DNA of 64,000 nt from a virus, in IMG/VR virus record IMGVR_UViG_3300017917_002374, positions 186,001 to 250,000 of that record. One strand, given 5' to 3'. A program made the position numbers and the translations under genes. This document shows positions 4,236-42,032 of this stretch, in pieces. The notes beneath the pieces were generated by a model. It was not told the origin of the DNA and did not search any database. It was given only the letters and a program-made list of their open reading frames with translations. Positions within the stretch are counted from its first letter, which is position 1, and every line of letters begins with the position of its first letter.

Positions 4236-4258
4236 TCCTAAAACTCCAATTTATCTAG

Positions 4259-4265
4259 TATTTAT
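4259..4265 (-). promoter_or_regulatory. late promoter -10 box, ATAAATA, for the 644-residue fibre gene
   Basis: On the minus strand the sequence reads ACAATAAATACTAG about 24 bases before the start codon, matching the T4 late promoter core TATAAATA at seven of eight positions. The distance leaves room for a short leader holding the GGAG/AGGA ribosome site. Confidence 0.55.
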
Positions 4266-4269
4266 TGTA

Positions 4270-7011: not shown

Positions 7012-7626
7012 TTATCCTATTGCACTCAAATTGGTCAGCGTCTGAATACGCACAGTGTAATCAATTTGAATCAGCCTGTTTAAACTTTTTTGTACAGGGT
7101 GAAAAATCACGTGTGTTAATAACTTCCCTGTACCTGAAGTTTCGTCAAGACTTCTAGCCTTAATTCCTAGTTCATCAAAAGTGAACGTGTCATTTAATGT
7201 AGTACTGTTGTCAAACACACTTTGGGTAGCAGGCTCGCCGTAATCTAGCAAGCAGCTGATAATTATGTCGCTGTATGGATTACCTGGAACATGACGCACC
7301 TGCATCTTGTTATTGGTTGGATCTGCGTTATCGTTGTCAGTATCGTCAATGATCTTGTAATAGGTTGGGTTGTACAGAGTTGCGTTCACACTAGTGGTAT
7401 TTGGAATTAGATATGTGATAACTCCGGTGCTGTCTACCGCACTACCTCCGTTACCAAAATGCATTTCGTACATGTATTGTGCATCTCTGTGACTGAGAGC
7501 AAATGCAATAGCTTCACTCATGTTTTCATAGTGAATAGCGTTTTTCTTGTCCACAAAAACTTCGCCGCTGTGCGGATCAAAAATCTTTACAAAACCTTCA
7601 ATTTTGATTAAACCTTGTGTTATCAT
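7012..7626 (-). CDS. unknown baseplate/tail structural protein
   Basis: This 204-residue protein belongs to no family I can name. It starts with IKIEGFVKIFDPHSGEVFVDKKN, a segment related to the C-terminal half of the 53-residue protein encoded just upstream. It continues with a well-ordered mix of beta-rich sequence and ends in a VRIQTL strand. Its position between the giant baseplate protein and the collar-tip fibre, with an ATGA overlap to the upstream small gene, suggests a baseplate or fibre-attachment component made late in infection. T4 has gp9 to gp11 in the comparable slot, but I see no sequence match to them. The function is inferred from location only. Confidence 0.7.
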   Translation of the reverse strand: MITQGLIKIEGFVKIFDPHSGEVFVDKKNAIHYENMSEAIAFALSHRDAQYMYEMHFGNGGSAVDSTGVITYLIPNTTSVNATLYNPTYYKIIDDTDNDNADPTNNKMQVRHVPGNPYSDIIISCLLDYGEPATQSVFDNSTTLNDTFTFDELGIKARSLDETSGTGKLLTHVIFHPVQKSLNRLIQIDYTVRIQTLTNLSAIG

Positions 7627-7809: not shown

Positions 7810-8892
7810 TCAGCGCAAGCCCAAAATGCTCACTAGATTTCCAGCAAACACATTGCCAGAAATAGTACTGTTTGTGGTTCCGCCCACATTTCTAGTTAAA
7901 TTGGTTAATCTGCTGTTAGCAGTCCAAACTCGTTCGTACCAGATTACCTCGCTGGCGATTCTAACGGCCCCCACAGTAGGCCTATTACTAAAATACAAGT
8001 ACTCACCTGCAGATACTGTGACATTTGCGTCAATATTTTGCACAATCACAGTGTTGTTAGTTGGAAAGATTTTACGCACTGTGGTTAAAGTATCATCAGA
8101 TACTAAAGCAACGATATTAGATGTAGCTACTAAACTTCCTATCTTTATATTGTCTAGAGTTTCAAGTGTAAGCACAAGACTGTTTGCTAATAGTGCGTTT
8201 GCAGTGATAGTGCGCAGGTTTCTAATGGTAAAGTTTTTTGGATAAAAGTAACAGGTCTCGTTCGCTGAAACAGTAATGTTAGTGTTAGCAATTAAATTCT
8301 GTATTAGCACACTGGCGTTGGAGAATATTTTTTGCACTATACTGTTTGCTGTACTAGGAATGTTAGCGGTAACAATTTTGTCGCCTACTGTGATATTAAC
8401 TGTGCTTGACAGAGGAATCCATAGGTTACTGTTTATTTGAGCACCGTTGGCAAAATACGTATTGGCACTCACAACACTGTTTGCTGTTATACTGCTTGGC
8501 GTAGGAAACAAAGCAATGTTGCTTACAGCTATTTCTGCATTGCTCCATGTCACTAAGTTACTAGTCAAAAAATCGTACTTGGGCAATCTAGGATCAATAT
8601 TGGTTCTATACGACGGGAGCACTTTGAGAAACGCTGTTTCAAATGTGTTAGTGGCATATAATCCAACATTAGATACTAGTTTTTGAAAGGTAATTGTGTC
8701 CCCAATACCCGTTGATAAATTGGTAGACACTTGTACCACGTTTGAACTAGCAAATATTCTTTCAACTCTGACATTGTCACTTCTTGGCACACTGTTGGTA
8801 ATAACACAATCAGCTACTGCTACCCCTGATACAGAGTCTACATAAACATTAGCGTTAGAAGATGCTACAACTATATTTGCAACTACACTCAT
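7810..8892 (-). CDS. unknown beta-rich structural protein
   Basis: The 360-residue protein is rich in Val, Ser, Asn and Thr and made of short alternating strands (for example VRKIFPTNNTVIVQNIDANVTV), the composition of a virion beta-protein. Several internal segments follow one pattern: a VxxIFxxNxxVxVQ strand, then a TVSAxExxYF strand, near residues 55-70, 185-215 and 270-300. This suggests repeated small beta domains. The same strand style occurs in the giant protein, whose TAA lies two bases before this ATG, so the two are translated from one message. It is probably a baseplate or fibre-linking component. No known family is recognised. Confidence 0.7.
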   Translation of the reverse strand: MSVVANIVVASSNANVYVDSVSGVAVADCVITNSVPRSDNVRVERIFASSNVVQVSTNLSTGIGDTITFQKLVSNVGLYATNTFETAFLKVLPSYRTNIDPRLPKYDFLTSNLVTWSNAEIAVSNIALFPTPSSITANSVVSANTYFANGAQINSNLWIPLSSTVNITVGDKIVTANIPSTANSIVQKIFSNASVLIQNLIANTNITVSANETCYFYPKNFTIRNLRTITANALLANSLVLTLETLDNIKIGSLVATSNIVALVSDDTLTTVRKIFPTNNTVIVQNIDANVTVSAGEYLYFSNRPTVGAVRIASEVIWYERVWTANSRLTNLTRNVGGTTNSTISGNVFAGNLVSILGLR

Positions 8893-8893
8893 A

Positions 8894-11800
8894 TTATGTT
8901 CCTGGTTCTAACCAAATACTTGATTGCGGTACTTGATTGCTTATGCTGGTTTGGTATGTTACAGAATTAGCGTCTCCACTAAAACCATTGTTCACAGTAA
9001 GATCAGAAAGTATAGTCAACACTGTGTCTCGTGTGATTTCTTGTGCCTGACTTGCATCACTAATTAGACTTCCTACTTCATGTACCAACGGAATACTGGT
9101 TCTTGAGGCACCTCTACGTATGTCTGTGATAGCATTTCTTCCTACATCTCTTCCAAAATAATTAATGCGTTCTGCATTGATCCAGATGGATCCAGGTTCA
9201 TTTAGAACTGCATTTGGTTCTGGCAGTTTTGTTACGTCTTCAACTATGATTTCTGTATCGTCGTATGCCAAACTAGAAGCCAACACGGTGGTATTTGCCT
9301 GACTCAATCTATAATAAACAGTTGGATTTTTATAATCTGTGAATATCTTATAAGCTATTACATTGCCATAATCCACATTACCGTTGATCACATTTGCAGT
9401 GAACACGTTCATTTGCAAACTGTCAATTACCTGTCCAGGCACAAGTTCTTCAGGTGCATGGCTACTGTATGTATCAATAAATTGACCACCATTGATAACA
9501 ATGTCTTCAGGTCTAGTACCAAGATTGGTATCAGTATATTCACTGCTAATAGTGGTATCAAGACTCAGTATATCCGAAGCAGTTTCAGTAAATGGTTGTC
9601 CAAATACTTTTACACCACTGTAGCTGGTTCCGGGTATTAGATCAGGAATATCCTTGGCCAAATGATTCAGCACACCGCCAATGGTGTAAAGTTTTGCACC
9701 AATCACGCTGGTGCCACCTTGAATTCCTAATGTGGTATTTGCTTCTAGAGTAAAGCCTGACGTGATTGCAACTGCATTAGCAAATACCAAGGTTCTAGAA
9801 TTTTTAGGCAAAGCCTGCGTGGTCACATACTGAGATTTTAATCCAGTAGTGTCAAACAGAGTAATCAAAGATCCTACAGGTATGTTTGCAGTGAACGGCT
9901 GACTGATTCGCACTGTGGTTGTGTTAACACTGATACTGTTGTAGTCAATGTTAAGATTACGTCCACTGCCTTCAGCATACTGCCAAGTAAATGCAGGGAA
10001 TCTACCAATCTGTTTGATTCTAGCACCTGTTGGTATACCAGTACCAGAAATGGTCCAGTTGGCTGCAACTTTGTCAAATCCTGACACATACACTGTGTTT
10101 TCGCCTCTTGACGCAGCTCTGCTGGTCACCAAAGTTTTGATTTCGTTGTTTGGCCCTGTAAAGGTCAATGTGGTTCCTACTGGAATGTTTGCAGTAAACA
10201 CATAAGCAAAGCTGATGCTTTGCCCTGTTCTTGAACTAAAGGATGTTGATGCAAATGCAACATTCACTGTCCATTCGTCTGTGTTAGAATCATAGTTAGC
10301 TGTGGTTACCACACTGTCCGCTGGCAGGTGTGTGGAAGTCACTGTCATGCCTGGAATTATCCAACCTATTAGTGCTGATCCATTAATAACAATTTCAGCT
10401 GTGGTTGCAGATACTACTGCATCCCATCTAGCCAGGGTTTCTGATGATGCACCAGCTCTTGATTCAGCAGATAGAATTGGATTGATGTTACCTAGATCAA
10501 TGTAGGCTTCGCTTTGTGATCCAGGATATCCCCAGATTGTGGTACTACCAGTTCCTGTCACAACAAATTTTTCATTATCCCATGCAATATCTGTGAGGTC
10601 AATTTTCTCTAAAGCACTTGGAGTCAGTGGACTAACAAAATTATCTGCGTTAAAATATCTAAAGTTCTTGTACACATAAATTCCGTGATCCACTACAGTT
10701 TTTCCAATAGTGTCGCTTGCAAGATCGGCAGTTCCAGTTTGCACCTCAAGCGGACTATCAATTCTGTTCCAAATCAGTGTACCAGCAGAACCAACTGCCA
10801 CAATGTATCTATCAAATGTGGTACTAACTGCTATACCATTGATTTGTTCTCCAGATACTCCGTCACCCTGGCCTCTTATTTCAGCTGGCACTGCCATGGA
10901 GATCCATGGATAAGATTGGTTGGTAAGTTTACCAGAATCGTAATTATAAGATTTGGCATATCCTTGAATCAAATCGTCCAATCGGTTGTAACTGGTGATA
11001 AACATGTTGCCGTTTACTCCGCCCACAATTACAAATCCCTGCTTCATTAAAGATTGGGTACCTGATGTAAAGTATCCAGAAGACTGCAAGTCTACAGTAT
11101 ACTGAGTACCATTGTTGTCGGTTAATGTGCCAAAATCAATCGCATGTACGGCTAAAAGTTGTCTTGGAAAGACAAAAATGTTTGGTTGAGGTTTAGCACT
11201 GTACCAGCCTTGTGCAACATCTTCTGACGTGTTGTACGGATTTACTAACACACTGTTTCCATTGCCCACAGCTACTACATACTTTGATCTTGTGGTAGCA
11301 GCAGATGCTACTCCAACAAAGTCTACTACCTGATTTGCATTTTGTTGCACAGCTCCTTCAGGATTGTTGGCATCAGGACTAAATTTAAATTCAGTAACTT
11401 GTTCTTTTGTCCAAGTCAGAGCATTTGTTGAAGTTAACAAACTGCCTTGATTGCCTACCACTACCCATACGTTGCCGTCAAAAAAGCATCCATCTCTAAG
11501 ATCAATATCGCTTTCTCTTACAGGTATGTAGGTCCAGGTTTCACCTGTTTGGCTTACTGCTAGCAGAGCTCTATTCCCGATTGCTAGATATTGATATTCG
11601 TGCAGATAAGAAACGCCGCCGGAGTGTAAAACCTTGTTCCACTCATTGTTCTGGCTAACGGCTGCTTCATTTGTATTACTTGCATCCAATCGTTGGCTAT
11701 CAGGACTGCTGTACAAAGTTGCAATATCAGGACTTCCTGGTTGATTGTATACTGCAATTCTGTCAATGGCATTATCAATATCAATTCCTGAAAGTTTCTG

Positions 11801-14800
11801 CACCACTGACGCATCATTAAACAGATTTAAGTCAAGCGTACCCGAGCCCAACACTGTTTTTAATACTTTGTATGCGTAGTTGTATCTTGGCAATGCTTGA
11901 TCTGGCAGGTTGTTAAAGAATACCGAAGTCACATCAGACACCACCACTATGTCATCTGTATGATAGGTGGTATACGGTTTCCATTTGGTTACTTTTGAAG
12001 CGTATGTTACTCTATCAAAACTTATCAAGGTTTTGATATTTCTAACAGTTTTGTTTACTGTACTAGACGAAACATCGCCGCCAATACTTGACAATACCAC
12101 ATAACCTTTAGCACCAAAACCGCCACCACCTTCAATGATTATACTAGGTTGACTTGTATAACCAGTACCTCTGCTGATTAGATCAATTTCAATCACGCTA
12201 CCGGTGCTGTTGTCAATAGTAGCGACCGCGGTGGCTCCTGTGCCACCACCGCCAATTATAAACACACTAGGAGCTCTTATGTATCCTTCACCTCCATTGA
12301 TCACAATCACAGACTCTAACACATATTTGTAATTAACTGACCAGCTAACAGCAAAACTATTGGCAATTAAATTTGCGTCTGTTGTGTTGTTAATATCAAG
12401 CACACGATAATTTCTTTGATCTATATCATAAATGCTTGACAAATCAAAATCAGTAGTATTGGCATTTGTGATATCAGTACCTTCGTAATCCAATAGATAA
12501 TTGCGCAGTTGAGTTCTGTATGGCTTGACTTCGTTAATGTAGTTTTCAAAATAATCTTGCTCGTCTCGGATGTATGACGAAAAAGTTTCTAGTTTACGTA
12601 TCTTGTGTACCACCGAAACCAAACTGGTCTTGATCAACCAATCTAGAGATCTTTGTTCGCTCAAGATATAGTTAACCAAAGTAAAGAACAGCTTGTTTAT
12701 CTGAATGGTATCAGTATCTGTAAAAATACCAGAAATTAACCCTTGCACAATGTTTCTTAGTTCTAGTGCAATGGTTTTGGCGAACCCAACGTTATCAAAA
12801 GGAGCGTTATCAAACCCAACAAGACTTAAATCATAATCGTACAATGCAGTACTGATTTGTATAGTGCCATTTTCTACTCCAACAATAGTTAACGACAAAT
12901 CTGCATTGGCCAAATACAATTCAAATTGTCCGTTGCCGTCATCAAGCACCTTAATTATATTGCCTGGTACCAAGTTCAACGTGACTATATCTTTAAATTC
13001 TTGAACAATATAATCAATTGTAGTTGTTTCATTATATCCACCGGCATACCAGTCGGCATAGAACCAATAACGACTGCTGTCATAACTTTGAATTCTTATC
13101 AAAGTCCAAACAGAATAATCAGAATCTGGAGTGTATTCGTATATGGTCCAATATGCTTCGTAATCAGCATCGGATCTTACCAGTACTTTATAACCTGCTT
13201 GCAGTTCTTCAGTTTGAACATACAGCAGTTCGTCCTTGGTATCAACTATAAGATTATAAAAACCAGCAGCATCTGGGGGTATCGGTTCTGCATTTTTTAA
13301 AATACTTAGATCTTTGTATTTTACAATCAGTTGTTCTTTGAGGAAACGATTTACGTAATCTACAAATACCTCAGTGGCCTTTATGGTATCTTTGATCATG
13401 CTCTGACGCGGACGAAGTGCAATACCATAACGTGTGCTCTCGCGTAGAGATAGATCAGGTATTACTTCACCAACAATATTTTCTCCTGCAAGACTATCAA
13501 TTAATTTATTAATATATTTCTCAGGAACCGGACTGAGCGCATTTCCTTGCTGAACTAACTCGTACTCGCTGTGCGCAATATTTTCATTTACAGTAATACC
13601 ATAGTCTATTTTGAAAATTATTTCGTCTGCTAGAAGATATCTATTGACGTTGTATAAACTAAATGCATTAGAACCAACCACTGCAAAGTAAGGCAAATTT
13701 TGACTTTTTGGATCTGCGATGATTTTTGCTAACGATGCTACACTGTTTGACCGTTTGGTTCTTACAATATCTACGGTGATTTTATTTTTTACCCAATAGT
13801 AATATTTGGTACGTATTAATCCTGACTGATTATCTAAAAAGTTAAATTCTACGTAGGCAGTATCGTCAGCATACAATGCTTCTCCGTCGCCAATTAAAGT
13901 TTGATATTCGCTAGGCAGTACAAAACTTTCAACCCATTCGCACACTTCAATTTCGCTTCCAGGGAACAATTCTCCCCAGAAAGTTGTTCTATATGATAGG
14001 TCGCCTTGTTCATAATCAATGTATCTACACTTGTCCAGATTCCACCAGGTTTTACCCACATGTAGATCATTCCAAACACTGTTTTCATCAAACGTTTGTG
14101 TGGTTCCGTTGCCCCTGTTGTAAACTGCCGGATCGTAGATAGTTTTATAATCTAGATCTTGGTCAGCTATTCCTAATATCTTGCCCTTAGCAGGATCAAA
14201 ATAATCAAGATCAGTGACAATGGTTTGAGTTTTACGATTGTACAAGAATCCTTGATTAATGTAATCAATATCAACTTTGTCTGTTCTTGATCTTAATTTG
14301 CTCCATCCTTTTTGTTCGTTAGGATTAATAAAAAGATGTAACAACCCTGCATTATCATTATAATAATCGCTCTTGGTGGCGCCCACGATGATCCAGTTGT
14401 TTCTTATTTCAATACCAGATCCAAAATTGTCATCAAAGAAAATTCTACTGTTCTGCAATACCTGATTGTATAGATATTGACTTGGTGCCTCTATGGTTTC
14501 GTTTGGAATAGGTAGATAATCGTAGATATAAACAGCACCAGAATTTTTCAAAAGATCAATAAATCTTGTGGTATCTTTATCAAACACAGTTGCTTGATTA
14601 TCAAAAGTGCTTTTCTTGAGAGTAACACCGCCCTCACTGGATACCACTAGGGTTTCACCTGTTACATTGTCCAGTTTGATAAGAGTTCCAAATCTTTCCG
14701 GAGCACCAAGCTCTGGGTGCCTAAATTCCTGTACTGGTGTATAGATAGAAAAACCTATGTCTTCTAGTGCTGTACCTGCGCCGGGTAATATGTTTATACT

Positions 14801-17800
14801 GTTTGATTTAGCGGTCGCATTGGCTAATATAGTAATTTGAGATGTTCCAATAGTTGACGACATTCTTGCCAACACTGTATTTGCGCCAGTTACTGTCACA
14901 GTAGGAGCAAAAGTATATCCGCTACCTCTGTTGGTAATTTCAAAACTGTCAATCGCCCCATTAGCGAACAGTGTGATGTTGCCCACCGTAGCGTTGATAC
15001 CATTTTCAATTTGATCTGGAGCGTCTATTACTATGGCCACATTAGATTCAAAATAACCTGTTCCTCTTAACGGAGTACCAAGATCAGATAAAAACACTAA
15101 ATTACTTACACCATCAGTACGAGCAAATATACCAGTTATTGCTCGGTTGTTAATATCTTTAGCAACCTTTTCACTGTTGCCATCGCTTTCCTGAAACACC
15201 ACAGGAATATCATTTATTCTGATATAATCGCCCTGTAGAACTGTAATATTGGCATTGTCTCCGACTTCTTTACCAAATACCAATGGCTTATTAACAAACC
15301 GGTATACTTTTCCATTGTAATAATCAACATCTCTATAGCCAGGTGCACCAACAAATATGTTTTTTCTTGATTGGTCTACTGCCACGCTTTGACCAAAATA
15401 ACTGTCTTTGACTATATCAGGATTCTCTATTTTTTGAATCAAACTAAATTGATTTACATCAACTTTTATTTTAGCTCCGCTTCGTGGAGCAGTTGTAAAT
15501 GTAATTGTGGTTTGTTCAGGTAAAACTACATAAGCAGTGGCTATATCTTCTAAATCAACCGGACCACCGCCTGATAAAACCACAGTTGGCACCGATGTAT
15601 ATCCAGAACCTGCATTAGTTACTATCACACCTGTTACTTTGCCTGTGGTAACATCAATACTAGCAGTAGCGGTAGCACCAGTACCGCCGCCTCCTGTAAT
15701 AACCACAGTTGGTGCACTGGTGTAATTTGCCCCACCATTAATAAGCACAATGTTGGAAATTCCAGATTGACCCACGGATCCTACTTCGTAATCAATTCCT
15801 TGAGAGAGTTCAAATCCGTCAATGGTAATTTTTGTAACTCCTGCAATGTCTCTTAAGGTTTTGTAAGTGTTGGTACTTCCTGAAACTGAGCCAACAAACA
15901 CTTGATATTCTCGGTCAAAGATATAGACTTTACCTACTCTAATAATATCAGTGTTATCATCAGTTGCCCCTGCTTCCGGAGCTCCAATTGCAACTTGATA
16001 TCCTTCTTTATCTATTGCCAAAGACCAGCCAAATTTTGCCACTCCTCTTGTGACTTTACGATTTTCAGTTCCTTGCAAAGCAAAAGCGCCGCCTACTAAT
16101 TTTTTATACAGTTGATATGATCCTGAGTTAGCCCCATCAGTGTTTAATACCTTGACGATGTCACCAACTTGATAACTACCAGCAACCATTGCACTATAAG
16201 TATCCACCGTGGCCGCCAATAATTGTCTTGCTACACTGTTAGATTGTACTCCAGCTTCCCACACAATTTGATCAGTTGGCTCAAGTGTGGTAACTAAAAT
16301 ATAATACTTGGTCAAAACATTTACTGCTAAAGTAGCTTCAGTAGCAAAGTCGTTGTTAAGAAAATTTAATGTTACTCCAGTTAGGCTGTAATCAACCCCC
16401 GGAATAAAAATTCTACCACTGGCTCCTACTACATTTATCTGCTCAATTTCCACCGGAGTAGTGGCCAAAACATAGGATGTTTGTAAAATTCCTCTAATTA
16501 CAGTTGGTGTGATAGCAGTTGTAGGATATATCTGCGACAGATATAAAAAGTTTTCATTTTGAATTGTACCAAAATTTCTAAAGGTTAATACGCCTGCTAT
16601 CACAGTATAATCAAAATCTGGTTCGTACAGTTTACCAGAATCCCCTACTACTTTTACTTCTGCGCTGGTTTTGACCAAAACGTAATTAGTAATATAACTG
16701 ATTTGATTGGTTATAACTTCTATTTTTTGTTGATTTGTTGGAGTGGATTTAGCAGCGTATACATAAACTTTGTTTGCTCCTGGAGCACCAACATATAACC
16801 AATTTTCATCATCTGATACAGCCAAAGCGTGTCCAAATCTATTATTACTATCAAGTTCGGCTGGATGTAATACCTGTTGAGAAATCCAATTAGACCCGGT
16901 ACTCTTAGATATTAACACTGCACCTTGTTGATCAAAACTTCCAGGTGCTCCTACATATCCATATCCACTGCCTAATTCTAACGAGAAACCAAATTCCTCC
17001 GCGTCAAGACCAAATGTGATTAGATTTTGAACTTGAGTAAAGCTACCTTCATCTAGCTGGAAAGTTCTTACTGCTCCTGTGGTTTTTACAATTTCTAATT
17101 CGCAGTCAATGCCGTTACCAATAGAATCAGTTATTATCACCGTGGGTTTATTTGTATAACCTTGTCCAAACTCTCTTAATTGCGCAATTGTAACAGATCC
17201 GTTAGTGACATTAATATTACCAGTAGCACCTGCTCCAGTACCCCCGGACACAGTAGAGAACTGTAATCTAGGAAAGCGATAATTTTGTCCTGTTGCTGCT
17301 ACTAGCAGAGTTTCTACACTGCTAGGAGCTAGTTTTACTCTGAGAATCGCTCCATGATTGGTGTTTGTGGTAATAAGATTTATTTCAGGTGGTGATGTAA
17401 ACCCAGTGCCTGGATTTAGAATAGTGCAAGAATTAATAGAACCTGTGCCAGCACCAGTGGTAATCAAGTTAACTATTATTTGTGCTCCAACACCGCCCCC
17501 GCCTACAACTTCTACAACCGGAGGAGTAACGAATCCACTTCCACCATTTATCACTTCTACGCTTGAAATAAATGTAGGGGCTAGTCTTGCCTGCACGTTA
17601 CCACCAGAACCGCGAGAGAAATTTAATGTAGCTTCACTATTAAAATTAATTAATATTGGCCCTGTTTCAACCGTGCCTGTTAAAGTATTGATAGCAGTAA
17701 TTCTTGTATTTTCTGGAATTACATTACCAGTACCATCGTCGCCTGTAACTATGTCATTTAAGAAAACTCTTGAATGTGTAAAAGTAAGAGGTTGTGAATT

Positions 17801-20800
17801 AACAATAGACCATGTGATACTGTCAGTTAATGTGATTGTGTTGCTTGAGTAATTGATACCTGCAACTACTGCTGATGCAACTGTGTTTCCTGTGCCATCA
17901 TTGCCTGTGACAACATCTCCTACCCAAATATCATTAGAGTTTGTTAATACCACACTCTTAGAAGATATCACATTAGCAGATACTGATTTAGTTACACTCA
18001 CACTGAGTGAGGATATAGGAATAGTATTGCTTTGGTAGGTGTTTGACGATGTAGTAGCAACATTAAAATCAACAATCTCAATATTAGGTAACAGATCGTA
18101 ATTGTTTCCTGACGCTGTAAGTCTTGCGGTCAACAGCGTGCCTGATTCAGTATCTAATGTAGCAGTAACATTTTTGCCATTTTCTAGATCAGGGGCGCTA
18201 AATGTTGCTTCTGGAACTTCGTATAAAAATCCAGGATTTATAACTCTAATTCCAGAAACACCACCGTCTGAATAATCTTTGGCACCGCTGATTACCAGTC
18301 GTTGATCATTATTAATAGCAATAGCTTCGCCGTACCCTTGCTGAGACTGAGCTTCACCTTCTCTCAAAGGTAAAATTTTATCAAAAGTCCAACCTGCATT
18401 TTTTTCAAACACAGCCCACAGGTTGTTTCCTATATCATTGTCAATCCAAATCTTGTCTTTGTCTCTCCATCCATGTCTTGGCACAAAATCTACCAGTTGA
18501 TTTATTCTTGAGAATCTTACTGATACCAATGTAAGTAACACGCCAGTACCGTCAACAAATTGTTGTGATCGCAATCTCTGTAAATTTTGATATCCTTCAA
18601 CCACAAATTGATCGTTATTAGTTACTGCTGTTACTTGGTAGAAACCATTGTAATCAATATCAAAGTTTTTTACAACTATAACAGTGCCTGCTACCAAGCC
18701 GTGCGGAACATTGGTGGTAACAGTTATTCTGTTGTCCAGACCAATTTGAAACTGGTTTATCAAAACATCAGTTTCGTTAACTCTATAAACATTCCAATCT
18801 TTGTTGAAGTCTCTGGCTACCCAGATTTTAAATCCGGCGCCTATAATGTTTACTAGATCTGCATAACTGGCATAATCTGTGATATCAAAAATTGTGGCGT
18901 CAACATCATCAAGTCTAGGATACCCAGCGGTTACTGCATCAGATAATCTAGTTTTAACATCCTGTCTTAAAGAAATAATGTTTTTGTCAGTGAGATTATC
19001 TGGTGCATAATACAACTGACTAATTTCCACATTTATCAATCCCTCTTGATCAACATCAGTTTTGTTTTTTAATACCAAAGTTGATGGGTTGTTCTTTAAA
19101 TCTTGTTCAAGCAGTTGAAACTCAACTGCTTGATCGCTGCCCAGAGCACCATAATCTCCTACACGCAGAGCCCATTCTTCATACAATTCAATATTACTAA
19201 AAAGATTATTAAATCGTGCAGTGGTCAGCGCATCAATTGCATTGATAGAACCTTTTTGTTTAATGTATCCTTGATAGAACTTGGTCTGACTCACGTTATC
19301 AAGTTTGAAATCTTGAAAATAAGATCTTTCTCTGAAGCCAGTTATTCCTGAACTTAAACTATCAAGATCAGCATCTGCTACAGTGTCATCAATGTTATAG
19401 ATACTGTTGAACTTTTCAGCGTTGTAAGAAAAGTTTGGCAATAGTCCTGTCTTGATTTTTGCTTTATCAATATTACTCCAGTAAGTAAAATCAAATTCTG
19501 TTGAAGCAGGTACTTCGCTGATTGCAAAATAAAACTTTTCTTTGAAACTAATCAATGCGCTTTTTCTATAATTTCTACCAGGTTGCCATTCATCAATGAT
19601 ATCGTTATTGTAAACAAATCCACCAGGATTCAATTGTCCAGTCCAGTTGTTGGTTTTGTTTCCTATTAGTCGTAAACGGTACTGTCTGTTTCCAAGTTCA
19701 GGTTGGTAGACAATGTCTCCAAACACTGTACTATTATCCATTAATAACACATGTTCGTATTGTACAAGGTTAAAGACTGCTAGTCCAATAGTATGTCCAA
19801 ATACTGAGGTGATTTGAAAAACGTTATCATCCCGTAACACTGAAAACTGACTGTTCTTGATTATGTTAAAGTTCTGATCAAGAATTTTACTTGCGCTTAT
19901 AGAATTAACCACATGGTCAACTACACCAGCAGTGTTGATAATTTTAATGCTGTTAAACACCGGACTCAATACCAACAGATTACCACTGGCCCATCCTTGT
20001 TGACTCCATACAAGGAATTCTTGCGCACTTAGAATCCAGGTTTGTTTTGTTTCTAGATCAGGATTAAAAGTATCAAAAATTAAACCTTGCGCAGTTAGAT
20101 ACCTACCATAACTGATCAGGAAATCTACTACCTGTTGCTTTGTGGCAAATTCAAATCCATAAGGAACTATCACTTTGGTGAATTCAAAATCTCTATAAAC
20201 AATCGCAGTTTCCTCAATAGCATCTATAGAGAATACATTATTATTTCGCTTGCTAGGAATTATTGTAAAATATGGTTGCTCTAGATCGTATCCGCGCACA
20301 GCAAAGCCAGTAGTAGTTCTTTCAATTACCACTGCACTATAGATAATTTTTTCTACAGGAGCGGATTTGTTTAAGAAAATTTTATAGTTTTCTGGAGGTA
20401 AAATTATACTACTTGCATTACTCACAGGAGAACTTTGATCTGCAATCACTGTGAGGAAATTATTGTCGCTGTAGCCAGCCATTTTATAACTGAGCTTTAC
20501 TTCAACGTTTCTCACAAGATTATTAATCTTGGCCGTTCCGTCTATGGCTTTGTTTGTGAACCAATCTCTTACCCAGTTGATGTATCCTGCAGTTAGAGTA
20601 ACTACTCCTGAGTTAAGTCCATCGTCAGGAATTGTAAAATTATCTTTGTTAACTCTTTGTTTGGTATCTGCTAGAACCAACTGATCAATATTACTATCGC
20701 GTAGATATCCAACTGTGTTCATGAGAGACCCAAAGTAAAATGCTGGTCTACTCAGTGCTATGGCTATTTGAAGAGCATACGGATATTCGCTGCTTCTTCT

Positions 20801-23800
20801 CCAGGCAGTTTCAACCGGACCTTGATCCCCAATTGCCCAGCTAGAGCTCAGTCGCGTTGCATCAAAACTCACCGGAGCAAATTTTTCTGGGCTTTTTAGT
20901 TGCCCATATTCGTCAACTGGAATATATGTTGACAGTCCTGGTCTAGCGAATCTAGTATCAATACCTTGTCTTGTGCCTTCTGCAATAAAGCCTAGCTCTA
21001 GATCGTCCCACAGTACAGTATTTGATCCTGTGTACGGTGCCGGGCCATATCTATTTTCCCACCAAGAAGGCTTTTCGTAAAATCCCAGCATTTCCCAAGG
21101 AGCAAGATGAGGTCTATCTGTGTCAAAGAAATAGAAATATATTCCTCTCCAGAAGCCTGGTAAAAATTCGTCATCATTATCTTTTAAGAATTTGTAGTTC
21201 CAGGTCCATGCATTGTTACTTTGAAAAGTATCATTACTAGAGTAATTAACTGAATTAACTCCGACCCAACGCAGAAAATTTCTTGATAACAGTTGGTTAA
21301 ACTCTGCTAGAGAATAATTTATTTTTCTAAATTTACCAGGAATACTATCAATTATGTCAAGTATGGTATTGGTATATCGTACCTTGATATTGTTGTAAAT
21401 TCTTAATTCAAGTTCTAGTAATAAATCGTCTCTATAATCTCCAAATGTTGGCATGATACTACCGTCATGTCCTTGGATAACCTGTCTTGGAGTTTGATAA
21501 CTATCATCAATAAAAATGCTTGGCACATAACTAGGATACAACCCCAACTTACTAGGTGTTTCGGGAACATAACTTCCTACTGTGGTTGGTCTGTCAATTA
21601 ATTCAATGTATGACGTATAGGTCAACGTCACTGTTTCAGACAAGTCAATTGCAGCAATGTTTTGATTAAAAGTAAAATCTTTATTTTTTGCTAGTTGTCT
21701 ATAAGTGCCTGTAGCAGTATCTCCTAAGTATACTAATACACTGCGTCTGCTTGGCACTGTGTCATTGTACAAACTTGGAATTTGATATCTTAGTTGTCTG
21801 ATATCAACTATAGGAATTCTGCTGTTTGTAAAGGCTTTGCCATAAGGAACCATGTCGCTATCATACCAAGGCATGGTAGTATTTTTTCCTAGATTCACAA
21901 CTTCCATTATTTTATCAACTGCTTCAGGAATGTTACCAACGTTTATTTCAACTTTTAGAGATTGATCCAAAAATTTATTTTTAAACTTGGTGTACTCTTT
22001 TTGAGCGTATTCAATGGCTTCAATAAATTCAAAGCCTTGATCACCAAATGCCAGTCCACTGTACAATGCTGGCGAAGCATGTTGTAAAATACAGCCAGTC
22101 CAATCTTTAATTTCAAGATCTCTAAGATTATTTTTGGCTAAAATATTTCCAGACAACCCATAATTATTTTGACTCATTGCAATTAGATGCTGTCTTAACT
22201 GACCTAGAGTCAATGTATTAAAGTTTTTATTTTCGGTGTTTAAATCAATGTTTAACGGCAGTTGATAGTAGCCTAGCTCCGAAACACTAGAACTATAAAT
22301 TAAAATATCAACTTTACTAGGCGGATCAAAACTTAATTCATCTTGATTAATTACTACCACATCCAGCTGTTCATATTTGGTAACTGTGTACAAAGACTCA
22401 GCTAATAGTCTATTGTCAACATAAACTTTCAAATAAGGAATAGTTTCGCTGGCATTAGGATTAATATCTATCTGAAAATAATTTGTATTGCCATCAAAAA
22501 ATTTTGTAATAATCTGATACTGTTTGGTTTTTTCTGCCGTTTTTGTCCAAATGTTTCTATATACAAATCCACTGTCTGTTTTTTGTTTGAATAAAAATTG
22601 ATTTAATGGCAACGATGTAGATAGTTTGTTTTTAATAAAAGAAAAACTATCAGTGTCGTAGTTGTTTGCAAAAACGATATCTCCAACATTTTGGAAATTT
22701 TTATAACTTAATGCAAATCCTAGTTCTGCATCTCTCTGACCAGTTCCTTCTAGATAAGAAAATATCTTTGTTCCTTCAAATTTAGATCCAAGAAATGCAG
22801 TGGTGTCTGAAATAGAAGATCCGTCGTCATCAAACAGATCAAACAAAGGTGCTTGATTGTAAGATGTTTTTTGCTGTGCAGGGATCCATTCTTCTCCGGT
22901 ATACCAATACTGGTTATAAGTATTCACACCAGTTTGTCTTTGTTTTATTGCATTTTGTCCTGTAGTTGGCAGTGCCACAATAACTGTATCGTCACTTTCA
23001 TAAGTGTCAGGAGTAATGTCGTCAGTATTAATTACTCTTGATCGTGCATCTGTTATAAAAGCTATGGCCTTAGTAGCATAATTAAATGTCACAAGAAGCC
23101 CAGCAAACTCTGGTTGAGCATGATTTAATATTACATAATATTCAAATTCAGCAGCGCCAATTTGAATAGTGTCTACTCCAATCACTTTTGGTACAATTGA
23201 GCCAGTAGTTACACCGTTACCGGATGCATTGTACTCGCTGGTTACTGTCATTCCAACAATAATACCGTCTAGGTCAGATACTAATAGTCGGGCTGTACCA
23301 ACACTGGATGCTACCTTTGTTACTGCGGGCACAGCCGGCTCAACTGTTATTAGAGGAGCTGAAGTGTATTCTGCACCAACATTGTCAACAGAAATTGTTT
23401 GAATTTTACTTGGATTGAGATTAGTAGTTGCTGTGGTTGCAGTTGATATCTGTAATGCCAAACCTGCTGCTGCATTTATTCTTCTGTTTAATGTGATTTC
23501 ATTACTTACAGCATTTACAGTTTCAATTAACAATCCGTTACCAAGCGAGTCTGCAAGGTCGTTTACCAACATGCCTTTCTGTAGTCCTGTAACATCTTCA
23601 AGCACAATTGAAAAGGTATTGTTCACCGGTTGTTTAATAAAATAATTGCTTTTGAAGTCTCCAACAGGATTATTATCGCCAAAGAATCCTTCAACAAAAA
23701 ATCTATTTTTGGCTGTAATAAAGATTTTTGTACCTGCTGGTAGGTCAATTGATTCACCGTCAGAATCTAAACTGTCAATAGTACCATTAAGAGTGATTTC

Positions 23801-26800
23801 GTACTGAGTTTCAAAATTGCTATCAAGAACTTCTTGTACTCCTGCTACTTTGAGAATATTGGCCTGTGTTAATGCCACATCCATATAGTATTGATACAAA
23901 TTAGAATTTGGTCCAGTGGTGTCTGTACTTACATAAGGAACTCTTGAAAAATCTCTGTAGCTAACATTTTCGTTTTCCTCAACTACTAGAAAAACTAGCC
24001 AGTCTTCTTTAACATACGTGGCTTCGGGGACATTAGTCACAATCAATTTGTTACTTTGATATGTTGTTACAGATGCTGTGATTAACTCAACACTGGTAAT
24101 AACCTCAGTGGTTAGATCTTTGTTGAGTTGATATCCAGATCCAGCCGAAACTACCTTAAAATATTCAAGCACATTATCATTAAGCACCACTTCAGCGGTG
24201 GCTGCCAAAACACCCGAAGGAGAAATAGTAATAGATGGAATGGAAGTATAGCCTGCACCAGGATCAGTCACAGCTATTGCATAAACTTCGCTACTGTCTG
24301 TATAAACTGCGGCTTGAGCTTGTCTTCCTACAAATGACACTATAGTACCAACTTTTACACTCACTGGTCTTGATAGCAGAATACGATTTTCGTCTAACAA
24401 CTGTACAACTTTTATCTCTGGCTCAATTGTAAATGCGGCTGCTACTCCTCCAGTAATGTATGCAGTGTAATTTCTGCCATCTAATGTGACAGAACGTGCT
24501 TCATCTGCGTACAAGCGAAGGGTGAAAGGATCAATAACTTCAACCCAATAGGTGTTGTTATTCATCTCAACTGTGCCCAGTACACCTCTGATAGTGATCT
24601 CGTCACCATCAATTAAATTGTGAGCATCTGCAGTAGTAAGAACTACAGGATTATCAATTTCAATATTTGCAATATCAAGTGGAATTGAACCACCAGTAAT
24701 GTACATGTCAATTCCGGCCACATTACTGTTGTCAACTGTGATGGTCGTGCTGTTTCTAGATGTAGAGACTACAGTTGCAGTTTGCACCCCAGGTGGTTTA
24801 AAAATAAAATTACGATTGTTTTGAACTTGTACTAGGTCTGATACTTTTACAACCAGATTACCAAAAATATCTTCAATAGTGGCGTTCACAGGTACACCAT
24901 CGCCATACATTCTATAGCCAGTAGCAAGTCCTGTGACAGAGTTCAAAGATACCAATTGAGTGCTAAAAACTGCGCTGTTTCCATACACAGCTTTAAGAGT
25001 CACTGCTGTTGCTTCGGCTGCTTTAAAAACCAACTGTACATCGTTTGACAGTGATGCCGGACTAGAAATTAAAATTGAACTTCCGCCTAGCACATTATTA
25101 ATCACTGTACCTCCAGTGATCCCGCTGCCGTAGATCAGCTGTCCGGCTTCTAGACCAGTGGTGTTATTGAGCACAATGATATTGCTCGTAAAAGTAGCAG
25201 TGTTTCCGTAGACTGTTAATTTTTCTAAGCTATTAGGGCTGCTAATGTTAGCTGTGGCCATGGTCCCAATACCAGAACCGCCATTGGTAATACGCACATA
25301 GTCAACATGTTTGTACGTAGAATATACAGGATCAATACGGGCATCTTGTGTGTTGGGAGTATCAATCTTGACAAACGGGTCTGCAACAAAATTTAATCCT
25401 CTGTAGTTAACCGTGACATTAGCTACGCTAGTAGACTCCATTATTACTGTGCCTGTAGCTTGTACTGCACCTATGCTGGGAACTGGTCTAGAGAAAGTTA
25501 CTGCGGGTACAAAATCGTACAAAGGCGCTACCGAATAATCTACTCCTCTAGAAACAATTTCGTAATTGCTTATAGATCCGTTTTCAATAGTAACCGTGAT
25601 TTCTGCCCCGGTTCCTGCACCACCACCAACAAATCCAACTTCTGGGGTGCTTCTATAGTTAATTCCAACATTACTAAAAACTAAATCTTGTATTTCTCCA
25701 GTCACAGGATCCACAATAAGAGTAGCTGCGGCAGGAAAATCTGGATTTCCGCCTATAAAAGTAACTGTGGTATCTTCTATTATTTGAGTAGAAGATACTG
25801 TGTACGTAGGCAATAATTCAGTACTCTCGCTGACTAAATGAATCTGTGTTCTATCCGCAATAGAAATAAATTCTACTTTAAAAATTTTGTTTCTGACTTC
25901 AGGATTCTTGTCAGCAGCAAAAATTATTCTTGTTCCGTCAGTTAAAGGACGTGATACATTATTAGGCAAAGTAATCACATAGGTCTCTTTACCTTCAACT
26001 TCTTTGAATGCATCTGTAATTGTGTAATCTAAAACGTCAACTGGTGCTTTGGCTCGTTGTCCATAATTGAATAGATACAAGTCTGATTCAAATTCAATAA
26101 TTGGACGTATTGCTCTTATTGGAGTCTCAAGCAACAAATTTGGATTGTCATTATATTGTGCTGCCAACTCAATTAATTCACTATGAAACCAACGGTTGCT
26201 TCTGCTCCAGGCATTTAGATCTCTACTTCCTCTTGACACAGTAATATAATCAGGAGTAGTTAGATTGTCATTCAATGCATATTCCTCTGGTACTGTAAGA
26301 TTGCCAGTTCCAACCAGTCGTATGCTTTTGCCAACACCTTCAACAATATAAACACTGTCTGCGTATTCGCTAGGAAATGCAGTATTATCAAATCGTATTT
26401 TTAATCCATTGGTAAATCTTACACCATTTGGACTTGTATAATTTTTTCTACCAAGAATCACCCCTTCAACATCTAGACGTGCATCAGTAGGTTCAATAAG
26501 TTTAATAACACCACCATAACTGTCGCTATTTGCATCTTGATAGTATAGTTCGGTAAGAGGCGATGTAATTTGCTTTACTCTTTCCCAATAGCCTTCTGCA
26601 TTTTTTATAAATTCAACTCCGGCATTATTAGTACCGCCGCTGATATAAACTTTTTCGTTAATGTTTACAGACTGTAGATGTTCTAGCTGTACTAGTCCAT
26701 TATTAGTGCCTATGTTTGTTATTCTAATACGAAAAATATCGTATCTTTTTGATAATGGCAATAGATCACCTTGTTCGTATCCGCTTTCAACAAAAGGTGC

Positions 26801-27760
26801 TCCTTGGTCGTACTTGTCAAAATCAAAAGTGCCTTTGTCTGTCCAATCAGTATCGTTTTCTGATCTTGAAAGGAATATTAAGGTTGATCCATCTAATGAT
26901 CTAGCAGTAGCACCATCAATGCCGCCTGACTGTCTAATTATTGTAAGCAGATGATTTTGAACTCTAGAGTATGATAAATCCGTAGCATAATTTACTGTGG
27001 CTATTCTTGATGCGAATCGTTCGGCATCCTGTGCATTTGATGCTGGAACGGAAAATACAACTACACCGTTGTCTTCACCATTGTTTTCAACTCCAAAAAC
27101 TTCTCTTGACAAAGCTTCGGCTTCGGTTGATCTAGTACCAGTTTTTCCTGGCTCGGTTTGAATCCAAAAACCATTGCCTGGTTGGTTTACTGTGAATCTA
27201 TAGGTATTGCCTTTGACCAGAGTTAAAACTGGATTAGGATCTCTGCCATCACTAGAAAGTGTATAAGCTGTTTGTTTTGAATCACGAGCTACGGAAAAAT
27301 TTAATACTTCCGTAATGGCACTGGCACTTACTGCCACTTCTGGTGGTCCGTCAGGCAACCAATAATATTGATTAAAGTTAACAAACTTATCAAAGTCAAA
27401 CAGACCATTGAAATTGTAACTTTCGTTTTCAAAAAGTCTGCTGTGGTCATTGGTTAGACCACCGTAGTAATTAATTTTTTGAATTAAATCAATGTAGCTG
27501 GAATAGAATTCTACATTTTTGTTTTGATCCTGTACTACGAAACTGGCCTCAAGTTGATAATTCTGTCTGTCTTGTGTGGGTTCTTCTATGTACGAATCAT
27601 TATACTTAAAAGTTGGAGCAAATTTACGTCCTACAAATCCGTCAATTTTTTTTAAGTCAGGTTCTGAAATCAACTGATCAACAGTTGCAGCCAAAAACTT
27701 TTTGTTGGTGTCGGATCTAAATATTTCTGGTAGTAAATTAATACTTTTAATTGAGGCCAT
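8894..27760 (-). CDS. giant virion structural protein (6288 residues), baseplate-associated
   Basis: One uninterrupted frame of 18.9 kb sits directly after gp6, the slot of gp7 to gp10 in T4. The N-terminus ([20 protein letters not shown] and about 150 residues) resembles large structural proteins of marine T4-like phages. Seven FG-GAP-like motifs with a VGAPG or VAIGAPE core occur near residues 3140, 3595, 3645, 3915, 4125, 4360 and 4450, as in integrin-type beta-propellers. BNR/Ycf48-like blades ([18 protein letters not shown] and similar) lie around 5390-5670. At least twelve short GSGYTSxPTVxIxGGGGTGA modules are scattered from residue 700 to 5220. No signal peptide or catalytic motif is evident. 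It probably forms a very large baseplate wedge or fibre element that contacts the host. A TTAAATA box and a GAGAGAAC ribosome site precede it. Confidence 0.88.
12100..12300 (-). repeat. GxGYTxxPxVxIxGGGGTGA double repeat in the giant protein
   Basis: Two adjacent copies are encoded here: [20 protein letters not shown] followed by TGA, and [20 protein letters not shown]. Equivalent pairs occur at about 15570-15740, 17390-17560 and 25500-25740. The unit is about 35 residues, strand-turn-strand followed by a glycine-rich turn. Confidence 0.7.
14370..18350 (-). other. FG-GAP beta-propeller segment of the giant protein
   Basis: Seven FG-GAP-like motifs are spread across this stretch, for example [40 protein letters not shown] and [20 protein letters not shown]. 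Seven is the blade number of an integrin-alpha propeller. Long insertions of glycine-rich and beta modules separate some blades by 200-450 residues, so the propeller would be discontinuous. This is read from motifs, not from a structure. Confidence 0.65.
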
Positions 27761-27804: not shown

Positions 27805-30800
27805 TTAAAGCAGATTTGCAGCAGTGATAGCTGAAATAATTTCAACATTATCTACTGTGGCGCAACTTATCATAATTTCATCTGGTTCGGCATTTATTTG
27901 ATACAGATTACCAAAACTTAGTCCATTATTTGAAGGCACAATGATCACACTGGCAATTTTGGGAGTAAGTACCTGGTGCAAATAAGCACTGAGTTCACTA
28001 AAAAAGAACGGCTCGCCAAAGTCCCAGTTGGCTACATCAAAATATTGATTGATTGCAGATATTACCGCGGTCTTTATATCGTTATCGCTTACAACCACAT
28101 TGGCATTTTTAACCACTTTGAATGTTGCTCTTAAACTAGGATCTGCTTTGGCACCAAACAACGGTTTAAATCTTGCACTGGCAAATATCAAAGAATCGCT
28201 AATGGCTTTGTAATTGTCTAGTATACCATACTGAAGTTGTAGTTCTTCTGTTGTGGGCTGTTCAGGTTGAATCACTCGATCAGTGCTGTCTTGTGCCCAT
28301 GCTTGATAATCAGCAGCATACTGCTTGGTTAGCACATAAAGGTCAATAATGTTGTTTGGGCTTGGGTCAATTCTGCGTGTGGCCGGAGCTGTGTGTCTAT
28401 ACTGGAAGTACAAATCCTGTCTACCTTGTAATAATAGATAGGTTTCACCGTTTTCTGATGATTCTAAAGCCTTGCTGGTAATGTTTGCAATCGTGGTTAT
28501 TACCAAAGTGTAGAATAAATTTTCGCCACTGGCATAGAACACTTGCCCGTCGTCATATTGATCAATAACATCAACAATGTCTGCCTGCGATACAAAGCCG
28601 GTTTCAACCACACCATCATCTATTATTTGATATGTAATATAGCTGCTGGCTGTATACAATTTTCTAAAGAAAATCTTTTTCTGTGTAGGATTGACCTCAG
28701 GGTTTACAATTTCTTTAAACAAATCAGGATTGTCCGGAACACCATCTCTGTTGGTGTCAGGGTATTTCACATAAATTTTACTGGTGTTTTCGTAACCATC
28801 TGCATCAATAATCATTTTGTAGATAAAGAAAATTTTATCATCGTACAGTGATCCAGTTTGATCGGGTGCAGAATTTGATCTTAGAACTTTAATTTGATCA
28901 TTTATAACTTGAGCACTTTTTGGATCGTAGACTCTAACCTTGGGATCAAAATAAAACTTGGTTTCTCTTTTGCTCTCAAACACATAGTTTATCTGTCTGT
29001 AATATAATTTGTATCCAAGATTGGTACTTACAAATGCCACAAGCCAGCTACTATCAAGACTGCTAGATGTAGTGTCGCCTGCCCTTGCTTCATTATATTC
29101 TGCATTTATTCCTGAATTACCTAATAAAGGACTACCGGACTGAGAAAGTTTCAAATCTTGCGGCTGTATCACTTTCCATGCTTTGTTCAGTTGATCAAAT
29201 CTTAATCCAAAGTTTTTCTTGCTGTTTACCAGTGTGGCTGCGGATCTAAGAATGTCATTAGGAATCACATTGTAAATCTGAGGAATAATTTCATCAATGT
29301 ATGCACCCGGAGGGACAAAAGTACTCAGAGAAATAGGACCTGGCGTGTTTGCTGTGATAATGCCATTGGCAGTTCCGTCACCTTCAATCTTGACCACAGT
29401 GGCATAGATGTACACACGATCACCAGCAACACTAGGAGTACCAGATTTTATATCGTTGGTTTTGTCAAAATAAGCTGGGTCAATAGTAACATCTGCTGAT
29501 GCACGAAACTTGATGATTGAACCTTTGGTTATGAATCGCAAGGCTGTTGAACTGGCTGTGCCAACTTTCACCGGAGTGGCAAAGGAATTGAGCAGTTCTG
29601 CAGATCTATAGTTTGCAGATGTGGTAAAATATCCTGTGCTTTGATTTGTACCTGTGGTAAGTTGTACCCAGTTGGTGTCAAAAATGGTTCCGTTGACCGC
29701 AGCATCGCGTGTGTTGTATCTAGGAAATTTTTCATAGATAAACTGTGTGAACGAAACGTAGTTATCCACCAGCAGTTTGTTATTAATTACCTGATTAAGA
29801 CTGCCCACTACATCTCCATTTGTTGGAGGCACATAGTCTTGGGCATCAATAGTTTCTTGTCTATACAAGGCACCGTCTTCACCAAACACATTGGTTGAGC
29901 TGTATTTGCCTGTGACATCAATAGTATCAAGATATCTACTCACACCAGAGCTGCTTCTATTTGTTGCTTTGATTTTGATTATGTTATTGAACAGCGTGAA
30001 AGGCAAGATATTATAATCTTCGCCTGTGACCATGCGGTTCTGTGTGTAATACTGTTGTGGGGCTTTGGTTTTAATATCGTCTAGTGTTTCGCGTGAACTT
30101 GCATTGTTCACAGTGTATTGTAAACTGGCTCTAATGCTAAGAGTCTCAGCTCTGCCTGCCTTGCTTACATAAGTCAGAGGTATGATTATACTCTGCATTT
30201 CTTCAGGAGTGATCTTGTAGCTCAGCCCATTGCTCACACGATAGTATAATCTAAATGTACCAATAGGTATGTTTGCGAATGCACCGTCGCCGAACACTAC
30301 GTCAACTTGGTCGTTGGCTCTTGTATTAATTTGGTAAATGTTTCTTTCAAGACTGTTGTTATAGATAACGTTAAATCCTGCCACGTTTGGAACTTCAGTC
30401 CACTTTTCATTTGGCTCCCCATTTGCGTCCAGTTTAAACAACCAAATGTCAGTATTGTTGATGTTATCAACGTTCACGCTCACAGTTCTATTTGGAAGAC
30501 TGTCTGTAAGAGTAAAATCCAACTGCCCAATATCTCCTTGTTTGAAATACAAGAACCAGCCGGTGTTCTCGCTGTCATTACCAAGATTGTCGTTGCGATA
30601 CAATATGTTAAAAATTCTTGATGGGTTCGGATCTCGTTCGTAAAGATAACTTTGATTCACACTGGTAGGACTAACCACTTCAAAATTCATGTTTGAAGTT
30701 TCTACCAAGGTTTGGAACTTGAATGCTGGAACAATGTTTGGCAGTAGATTGATACTGTATTCTTCTGTACGTACTCCGCCAATGTTCTGTGTATTGCCTG

Positions 30801-31317
30801 GTTTGCCCACAGTCTGACTGTTTATTAGTGCTGTGTTAACAATCAAGCTAAACTGTTCTAACCAGTTGTCGTTACCAGGGTCATTCCATGACACAGGTAA
30901 ATTGCTAAGGTTGGTTCCGTTGCTGTCAAATAGATTTTCTGAAGTAAACACTGCTTCAAATTTTAGCAATCCAGAAGCATTAGTATTTCTTTTAGGATTG
31001 TAGCTGATCAATCTAGCCAGCTTGAGCACACTGTCTCTACGCTCAGCAGTGTCCAAAAAGTTTTCTCTTGCATTCAGATCGGTTCTAAATGCCAAACTTT
31101 GTCCTAGAAAGGCTATAAGATCTATCAAAGCAATGTATTCACTGCTTTCTAAGAAGTCGTTAAAATCTTCAGGATAGTAAGTGCGCAAGTAATCGATCAT
31201 GCTCTTGCGTAGAGTTTCAAAGTCGTAGCTTTGAAAGTCTGCATTTTGAAAACTTTGATAGATTTTTTTCCAGTCCTGCTGGATCAGTAGATTAGTTTGT
31301 CGTGTGGTAGCTGCCAT
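27805..31317 (-). CDS. 6: baseplate wedge protein gp6
   Basis: The product has 1170 residues, longer than the 660 of T4 gp6 but in the size range of marine relatives. The N-terminus is characteristic of gp6: a QSYDFETLRKSMIDYLRTYYP segment, then DFLESSEYIALIDLIAFLGQSLAFRTDLNARENFL and a RRDSVLKLARLISYNPKRN stretch. gp6 forms the continuous inner ring of the baseplate and links wedges to each other. The downstream half is beta-rich and ends with a VIxAINQYFDVANWDFGEPFFFSELSAYLHQV segment, the J-like helical region found near the end of gp6/gpJ-type wedge proteins. It follows gp25 and precedes the giant gene. A late box lies 20 bases upstream. Confidence 0.9.
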   Translation of the reverse strand: MAATTRQTNLLIQQDWKKIYQSFQNADFQSYDFETLRKSMIDYLRTYYPEDFNDFLESSEYIALIDLIAFLGQSLAFRTDLNARENFLDTAERRDSVLKLARLISYNPKRNTNASGLLKFEAVFTSENLFDSNGTNLSNLPVSWNDPGNDNWLEQFSLIVNTALINSQTVGKPGNTQNIGGVRTEEYSINLLPNIVPAFKFQTLVETSNMNFEVVSPTSVNQSYLYERDPNPSRIFNILYRNDNLGNDSENTGWFLYFKQGDIGQLDFTLTDSLPNRTVSVNVDNINNTDIWLFKLDANGEPNEKWTEVPNVAGFNVIYNNSLERNIYQINTRANDQVDVVFGDGAFANIPIGTFRLYYRVSNGLSYKITPEEMQSIIIPLTYVSKAGRAETLSIRASLQYTVNNASSRETLDDIKTKAPQQYYTQNRMVTGEDYNILPFTLFNNIIKIKATNRSSSGVSRYLDTIDVTGKYSSTNVFGEDGALYRQETIDAQDYVPPTNGDVVGSLNQVINNKLLVDNYVSFTQFIYEKFPRYNTRDAAVNGTIFDTNWVQLTTGTNQSTGYFTTSANYRSAELLNSFATPVKVGTASSTALRFITKGSIIKFRASADVTIDPAYFDKTNDIKSGTPSVAGDRVYIYATVVKIEGDGTANGIITANTPGPISLSTFVPPGAYIDEIIPQIYNVIPNDILRSAATLVNSKKNFGLRFDQLNKAWKVIQPQDLKLSQSGSPLLGNSGINAEYNEARAGDTTSSSLDSSWLVAFVSTNLGYKLYYRQINYVFESKRETKFYFDPKVRVYDPKSAQVINDQIKVLRSNSAPDQTGSLYDDKIFFIYKMIIDADGYENTSKIYVKYPDTNRDGVPDNPDLFKEIVNPEVNPTQKKIFFRKLYTASSYITYQIIDDGVVETGFVSQADIVDVIDQYDDGQVFYASGENLFYTLVITTIANITSKALESSENGETYLLLQGRQDLYFQYRHTAPATRRIDPSPNNIIDLYVLTKQYAADYQAWAQDSTDRVIQPEQPTTEELQLQYGILDNYKAISDSLIFASARFKPLFGAKADPSLRATFKVVKNANVVVSDNDIKTAVISAINQYFDVANWDFGEPFFFSELSAYLHQVLTPKIASVIIVPSNNGLSFGNLYQINAEPDEIMISCATVDNVEIISAITAANLL

Positions 31318-41989: not shown

Positions 41990-42032
41990 TAAAATTTAAT
42001 CATGGCACCGCTGGAGATAATTATGTTTGCAA

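Follow-up and report, generated by a model that had tools for sequence, protein, structure and literature searches.

Genes at the locus

The window, i.e., the whole stretch of 64,000 nucleotides analysed, corresponds to positions 186001-250000 of a virus record of 354,959 bases. Its genes are arranged in the order gp46/gp47/gp55 (divergent), 'virion structural protein', gp53, hub proteins, lysozyme, gp25, gp6 and a giant gene, which is largely common to RaK2, CBB, 121Q and PA5oct (Table 1). The giant gene starts 44 nt past the stop codon of gp6 and the next start codon is found one base after its end. The gp6-like protein itself has 1170 aa versus 660 aa in T4 gp6. Most relatives also encode, downstream of the giant, a 204-aa protein (PHROG 11259, no assigned function; 32-82% identity), which is better conserved across jumbo phages than the giant and is a candidate baseplate connector. 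The 911-aa and 644-aa fibres have a common N-terminal adapter of 150 residues (42% identity).

Table 1. Positions of the giant gene, its segments and its neighbours in the window
Feature	Coordinates	Strand	Details
Giant wedge-associated virion protein	8894..27760	minus	6288 aa, 690 kDa; PHROG 10938 collinear in six pieces
Core block N	25751..27760	minus	residues 1-670; includes proposed gp6-binding segment (1-150)
Insertion 1	22961..25750	minus	residues 671-1600; GG-rich beta repeats; ~60 residues in most relatives
Core block M	18266..22960	minus	residues 1601-3165; constant length across family
FG-GAP beta-propeller	14288..18343	minus	residues 3140-4491; insertion 2 (GG-rich beta repeats and other segments) between blades
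Core block C	11891..14287	minus	residues 4492-5290
Family signature 'DW..KTS ... EVKPYR'	12443..12679	minus	residues 5028-5106; strongly conserved; proposed docking segment
C-terminal tail	8897..11890	minus	residues 5291-6288; internal duplication
gp6-like baseplate wedge subunit	27805..31317	minus	1170 aa; PHROG 10646, E 6e-296; PHROG 219
gp25-like sheath initiator	31365..31760	minus	PF04965, 42.9 bits
Tail-lysozyme-like hub protein	31777..32550	minus	PHROG 27932
gp5/VgrG-like hub protein	32551..34011	minus	PHROG 13211; PF04717
gp53-like wedge subunit	36896..37207	minus	PHROG 7145
360-aa protein	7810..8892	minus	only in the window's own clade (tblastn matches only L159-L162)
204-aa conserved protein, proposed connector	7012..7626	minus	PHROG 11259; downstream of giant
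911-aa tail fibre, collar/gp10-C-like end	4270..7005	minus	shares N-terminal adapter with 644-aa fibre
644-aa fibre	2301..4235	minus	same N-terminal adapter as 911-aa fibre

Reading frame of the giant gene

The giant gene begins with ATG and runs through 6288 codons as one frame without an internal stop codon, which bears out the original prediction of an uninterrupted frame of 18.9 kb directly after gp6. In composition shuffles of the same DNA, the longest stop-free run was 161 codons. The frame is also present in four independent metagenome contigs, namely L159 (6288 aa, 91% identity to the window giant, end to end), L160 (6190 aa, 57%), L161 (6282 aa, 54%, aligned in two pieces) and L162 (6226 aa, 46%). 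Between the window and L159, dN/dS was 0.026-0.082 in every 500-codon bin, hence, purifying selection acts along the entire chain, which is maintained as one coding frame. The shuffles, the four contigs and the dN/dS values together exclude both chance and an assembly fusion, the latter having been considered in the original prediction. No point was found in favour of an assembly or reading artefact, and its probability is negligible.

Family membership and gene position

Compared with PHROG 10938, the window giant gave six collinear matches (profile positions 20-302, 311-462, 561-1461, 1463-1700, 1758-2138 and 2211-2475, together spanning 20-2475 of 3324; best E 1.6e-156). This PHROG is the giant virion-protein family of RaK2-like jumbo phages and carries no functional assignment; its members are RaK2 ORF070 (3326 aa), PA5oct gp355 (3857 aa), Atu_ph07 gp180 (4449 aa), CBB gp236 and 121Q gp582. 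A tblastn search of 50,697 phage records with three core regions of the giant matched almost only large-genome phages of the RaK2, 121Q, CBB, PA5oct, Atu_ph07 and SCTP-2 kind. Judged by these alignments, the window giant is a greatly lengthened member of the existing RaK2-type giant family rather than a new fusion. It has the collinear core and the position after gp6 in common with its relatives, which are virion proteins in the homologues tested. The cultured relatives have 3326-4555 aa, and the window giant differs from them by long additional insertions at two internal sites and by its tail. Giant proteins in the slot after gp6 were already known; the size of 6288 aa and the elastic architecture are new.

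By coordinates, gp6 lies immediately upstream of the giant in 31 of the 31 IMG/VR contigs tested, and the same arrangement is found in RaK2, CBB, 121Q, PA5oct, Atu_ph07 and Phosso. The window giant directly follows gp6 in the gp53-gp5-gp25-gp6 cluster as the members of PHROG 10938 do, and is located directly 3' of gp6 like T4 gp7. In Salicola phage SCTP-2 (L006 6609-15899), a 3096-aa gene is found directly upstream of the giant at the place expected for gp6. This gene was considered as a giant gp6 and was rejected, since BLAST showed no gp6 similarity.

Segment lengths and domain architecture

To compare segment lengths, fixed points of the window giant were mapped across its homologues. Points 1640 and 3130 are spaced 1462-1598 residues in the well-aligned members, excluding the most distant ones, which were not mapped, and 1796 residues in Atu_ph07, which aligns less well. 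Points 4510 and 5120 are spaced 531-720 residues across the homologues mapped. The stretch 630-1640 with insertion 1 varies from ~60 to 1010 residues among homologues, the stretch 3130-4510 with the region of insertion 2 from 460 to 1380 residues, and the C-terminal tail from 518 to 2737 residues. The family, thus, combines a core of constant length with elastic insertions. The giant of contig L177 (6423 aa) owes its length to the tail, whereas the giants of the window clade owe theirs to both insertions; hence, one core has been brought to giant size in different ways.

The GG-rich beta repeat comprises ~40 residues, and ~16 plausible units were counted in the window giant, mostly outside the core. 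The repeat also matches cyanophage-type PHROGs. Matches of 'baseplate wedge' PHROGs inside the giant are due to cross-matching of this repeat and were rejected as a sign of homology. The FG-GAP propeller was recognized by PF14312 (59.7 bits, cut-off 23), and about seven blade motifs were found by eye and by pattern within residues 3140-4491. A model of residues 4340-5290 (pLDDT 77) gave matches to integrin-alpha propellers with Z up to 10.4 for its first 152 residues (4340-4491), which cover the last blades only. A cupredoxin fold was obtained for residues 166-276 of the compact homologue in L063 (Z 11.2; pLDDT of the model 85), and the corresponding domain of the window giant (~160-260) is a degenerate copy. 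The full type-1 copper ligand pattern (H, C, H, M) is kept in 3/63 aligned relatives and lost in the others. In the giants of L063, L097 and L098, a cupredoxin-fold domain is part of a baseplate-associated protein.

The signature DW..KTS...EVKPYR is kept from RaK2 to the window with few variants. In the model of residues 4340-5290, folded alone, its second half has low confidence. The strong conservation combined with the poor modelling would fit a segment which folds on a partner.

The tail (residues 5291-6288) has no Pfam match. Its last 288 residues (8897-9760, minus strand) are among the most conserved parts of the giant, with 95/74/68/62% identity in the clade, though the rest of the tail is variable. 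The tail of the L063 giant carries a YHYH domain instead (PF14240, E 1e-37; L063 19802-20677, plus strand). An Asp-box propeller in the tail, common to T4 gp7, was looked for and found to be unsupported.

Search for gp7, gp8 and gp10

Seven core blocks and the tail were compared profile against profile with T4 gp7, cyanophage gp7 and a Rhizobium phage gene following gp6. Shared beta repeats aside, the core blocks reached probabilities of at most ~2% with T4 gp7 and cyanophage gp7, whereas T4 gp7 was recovered in the cyanophage gp7-slot giants with 93-95% by the same method (positive control). The tail did not match either. The N-terminus of the giant resembles that of the Rhizobium phage gene (MKSIN.LP..R), which is striking by eye, but the probability was only 2% and the candidate was discarded. 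The core of gp7, consisting of a helical domain and the motif DFY.(S/T)KG...FLF..LY, was not found in the giant, and PHROG 964 was absent. No other gene of the gp7, P2-gpI or cyanophage-gp7 type exceeded the threshold in the 355-kb record, in which one weak sub-cut-off match occurs elsewhere. For gp8, matches of the giant to PHROG 438 were limited to its beta-repeat part (165-287) and the gp8 core was not found, whereas the T4 control matched at 3-86, 139-185 and 441-478. For gp10 (PHROG 958), the giant gave no match; the record, in which no full gp10 was found, has an N-terminal match of 31 residues elsewhere. Models of L063 residues 1-1200 and of residues 4340-5290 of the window giant were compared by Foldseek and VIA; the resulting lists were filled by cupredoxins and propellers and contained no gp7/TssG chain, which does not imply that such a fold is lacking. 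A PDB sequence search with both core alignments yielded nothing convincing. The N-terminal segment of the L063 model has moderate confidence and shows no visible helix-turn-helix. The giant, thus, has no sequence match to gp7, gp8 or gp10 beyond shared beta repeats, and as far as primary structure can tell it is outside the gp7 family.

These results bear on the original prediction, according to which outer wedge functions may have been merged with very large host-contact domains in one chain occupying the place of gp7 to gp10. The position of gp7, the virion homologues (see below) and domains of the surface-contact type agree with this, but the merger of gp7 to gp10 is not supported. Its length and position are what the chain offers in favour of a merger, and the sum assumed for T4 gp7, gp8, gp9 and gp10 (about 2500 residues) was slightly high (1032+334+288+602 = 2256). 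The gp8 core and gp10 similarity are absent from the chain, RaK2 needs only 3326 aa in the same slot, and the genes following the giant are separate, including the collar/gp10-C-like fibre and the conserved 204-aa gene. The neighbouring fibre genes and the 204-aa gene indicate that functions of the gp10/gp12 type lie outside the giant, and we regard it as very improbable that the functions of gp7, gp8, gp9 and gp10 are united in it.

Presence of homologues in virions

Homologues of the giant are virion proteins. CBB_236 was detected with 21 peptides in virion proteomics (PMC5259590). For phAPEC6 gp245 (381.88 kDa), which adjoins gp244 'baseplate wedge', 17 unique virion peptides were reported (PMC7247149). 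PA5oct gp355 was detected in the virion by ESI-MS/MS according to the genome annotation. In the proteomic data consulted from the two former reports, the peptides per kDa of the giant amount to about half of those of gp6 in CBB and about a quarter in phAPEC6. Such values, which are crude and carry little weight, are broadly in line with a ratio of one giant to two gp6.

The giant might also be a precursor which is cleaved after translation into several mature baseplate proteins of the size of gp7, gp8 and gp10. The modular blocks with variable linkers between them would suit such a precursor, and a ClpA-like gene adjoins the giant gene in RaK2, CBB and 121Q; the processing of structural precursors is, however, not a usual task of ClpA-like ATPases. 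Neither a protease nor a cleavage site was identified for the giant. Moreover, the peptides of CBB and phAPEC6 are reported against the whole ORF, and fragments are unmentioned in the parts of these reports consulted (PMC5259590, PMC7247149). Cleavage into several proteins is, hence, improbable.

Comparison with other wedge systems

Among phages with solved structures, the size of the gp7 orthologue is variable; it attaches to gp6 through a helical motif at its N-terminus and carries the tail spikes (XM1 gp17, 242 aa, PMC10457771). In A-1(L), the helical bundle of the wedge includes residues 1-107 of gp32 (PMC10966104). T4 gp7 (1032 aa) and XM1 gp17 adjoin gp6 like the window giant, for which the wedge role is presumed, but the giant is far longer and sequence similarity is undetectable. 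The cyanophage gp7-slot genes encode 3007-4454 aa. In public annotation, those of S-SSM7 (3007 aa) and P-HM2 (4454 aa) are called gp7, and S-PM2 p081 (3048 aa) is unnamed. Like the window giant, these cyanomyophage giants occupy the slot after gp6, are very long and contain GG-rich beta repeats. However, they keep the T4 gp7 core motif (DFY.SKG...FLF..LY), which is not detectable in the window family. Cyanophage S-SSM7 has two nearby genes of ~3000 aa which are both annotated as gp7 (L180 17861-32276). For pelagi- and cyanomyophages, gp7 was reported absent and VrlC was proposed as a substitute (PMC7029224); going by its description, VrlC is comparable to the window giant in this proposed role. 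A term search of Al-Shayeb 2020 found no size record for phage proteins.

Proposed role in the baseplate

On the grounds of position, elimination and the conserved core, the giant is the foremost candidate for the role of third wedge subunit, and it is probably a very large gp7-like subunit carrying peripheral domains. Alternatively, the giant could be a peripheral protein of the baseplate or fibre network outside the gp7 position, with the wedge being completed by the enlarged gp6 or by a small protein that escaped recognition. The giant is without gp7 similarity, gp6 has nearly double the T4 length and an uncharacterised 948-aa gene is found in the same cluster, all of which would suit a peripheral protein. 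Conversely, the position after gp6 is invariant in the 31 contigs and the cultured relatives, and collinearity of the three core blocks extends from RaK2-like phages to the window, whereas a protein serving as decoration alone should show weaker conservation. We consider a peripheral protein outside the gp7 position rather unlikely.

If the giant is a gp7-like subunit, one copy per wedge would fill the role of gp7. The conserved core segments may clamp it to the gp6 pair, with residues 1-150 as the proposed gp6-binding segment, and the chain would reach outward to the edge of the baseplate. Propeller insertions, GG-rich beta repeats, the cupredoxin-like domain and the tail would form a bulky skirt on the core of constant length; from their domain types, the insertions may have a putative role in host contact. 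The 204-aa protein and the two adapter-bearing fibres look like parts carried by the arm of the giant and might attach at the skirt. Host contact could be passed on via this arm to gp6/gp25, which would start sheath contraction. An exceptionally big baseplate periphery, as originally predicted, is supported as an expectation, amounting to 6 x 690 kDa if one copy is present per wedge. More tentatively, the outer baseplate in the window clade may consist of six copies of one 690-kDa chain, a gp7 equivalent without detectable gp7 sequence, which would have enlarged by insertions at fixed points as one covalent skirt (~4 MDa) instead of by the addition of separate proteins; this picture is possible but doubtful.

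In dozens of jumbo phages, the family bears no other label than 'virion structural protein' or 'hypothetical', and the gp7-like reading proposes a working role for it. On this reading, the outer subunit of the wedge would be the size-elastic part of contractile tails, its length being 242 residues (XM1), 1032 (T4), 3000-4500 (cyanophages) and up to 6423 here. The N-terminus of the giant and the KTS...EVKPYR signature, both conserved, are candidate docking sites for gp6.

Further genes in the window

At 94-2315 on the plus strand, two genes for fatty-acid desaturases (PF00487, 44 and 53 bits) precede one for a 4'-phosphopantetheinyl transferase of the AcpS type (PF01648, 58.5 bits), a lipid-modifying trio unusual for a phage. 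In cyanophage P-HM2, a phosphopantetheinyl transferase is encoded a few genes ahead of gp25. A SegE-like GIY-YIG endonuclease (PF19835, 108 bits) is encoded at 42027-42467 on the plus strand, after the gp46-like gene.
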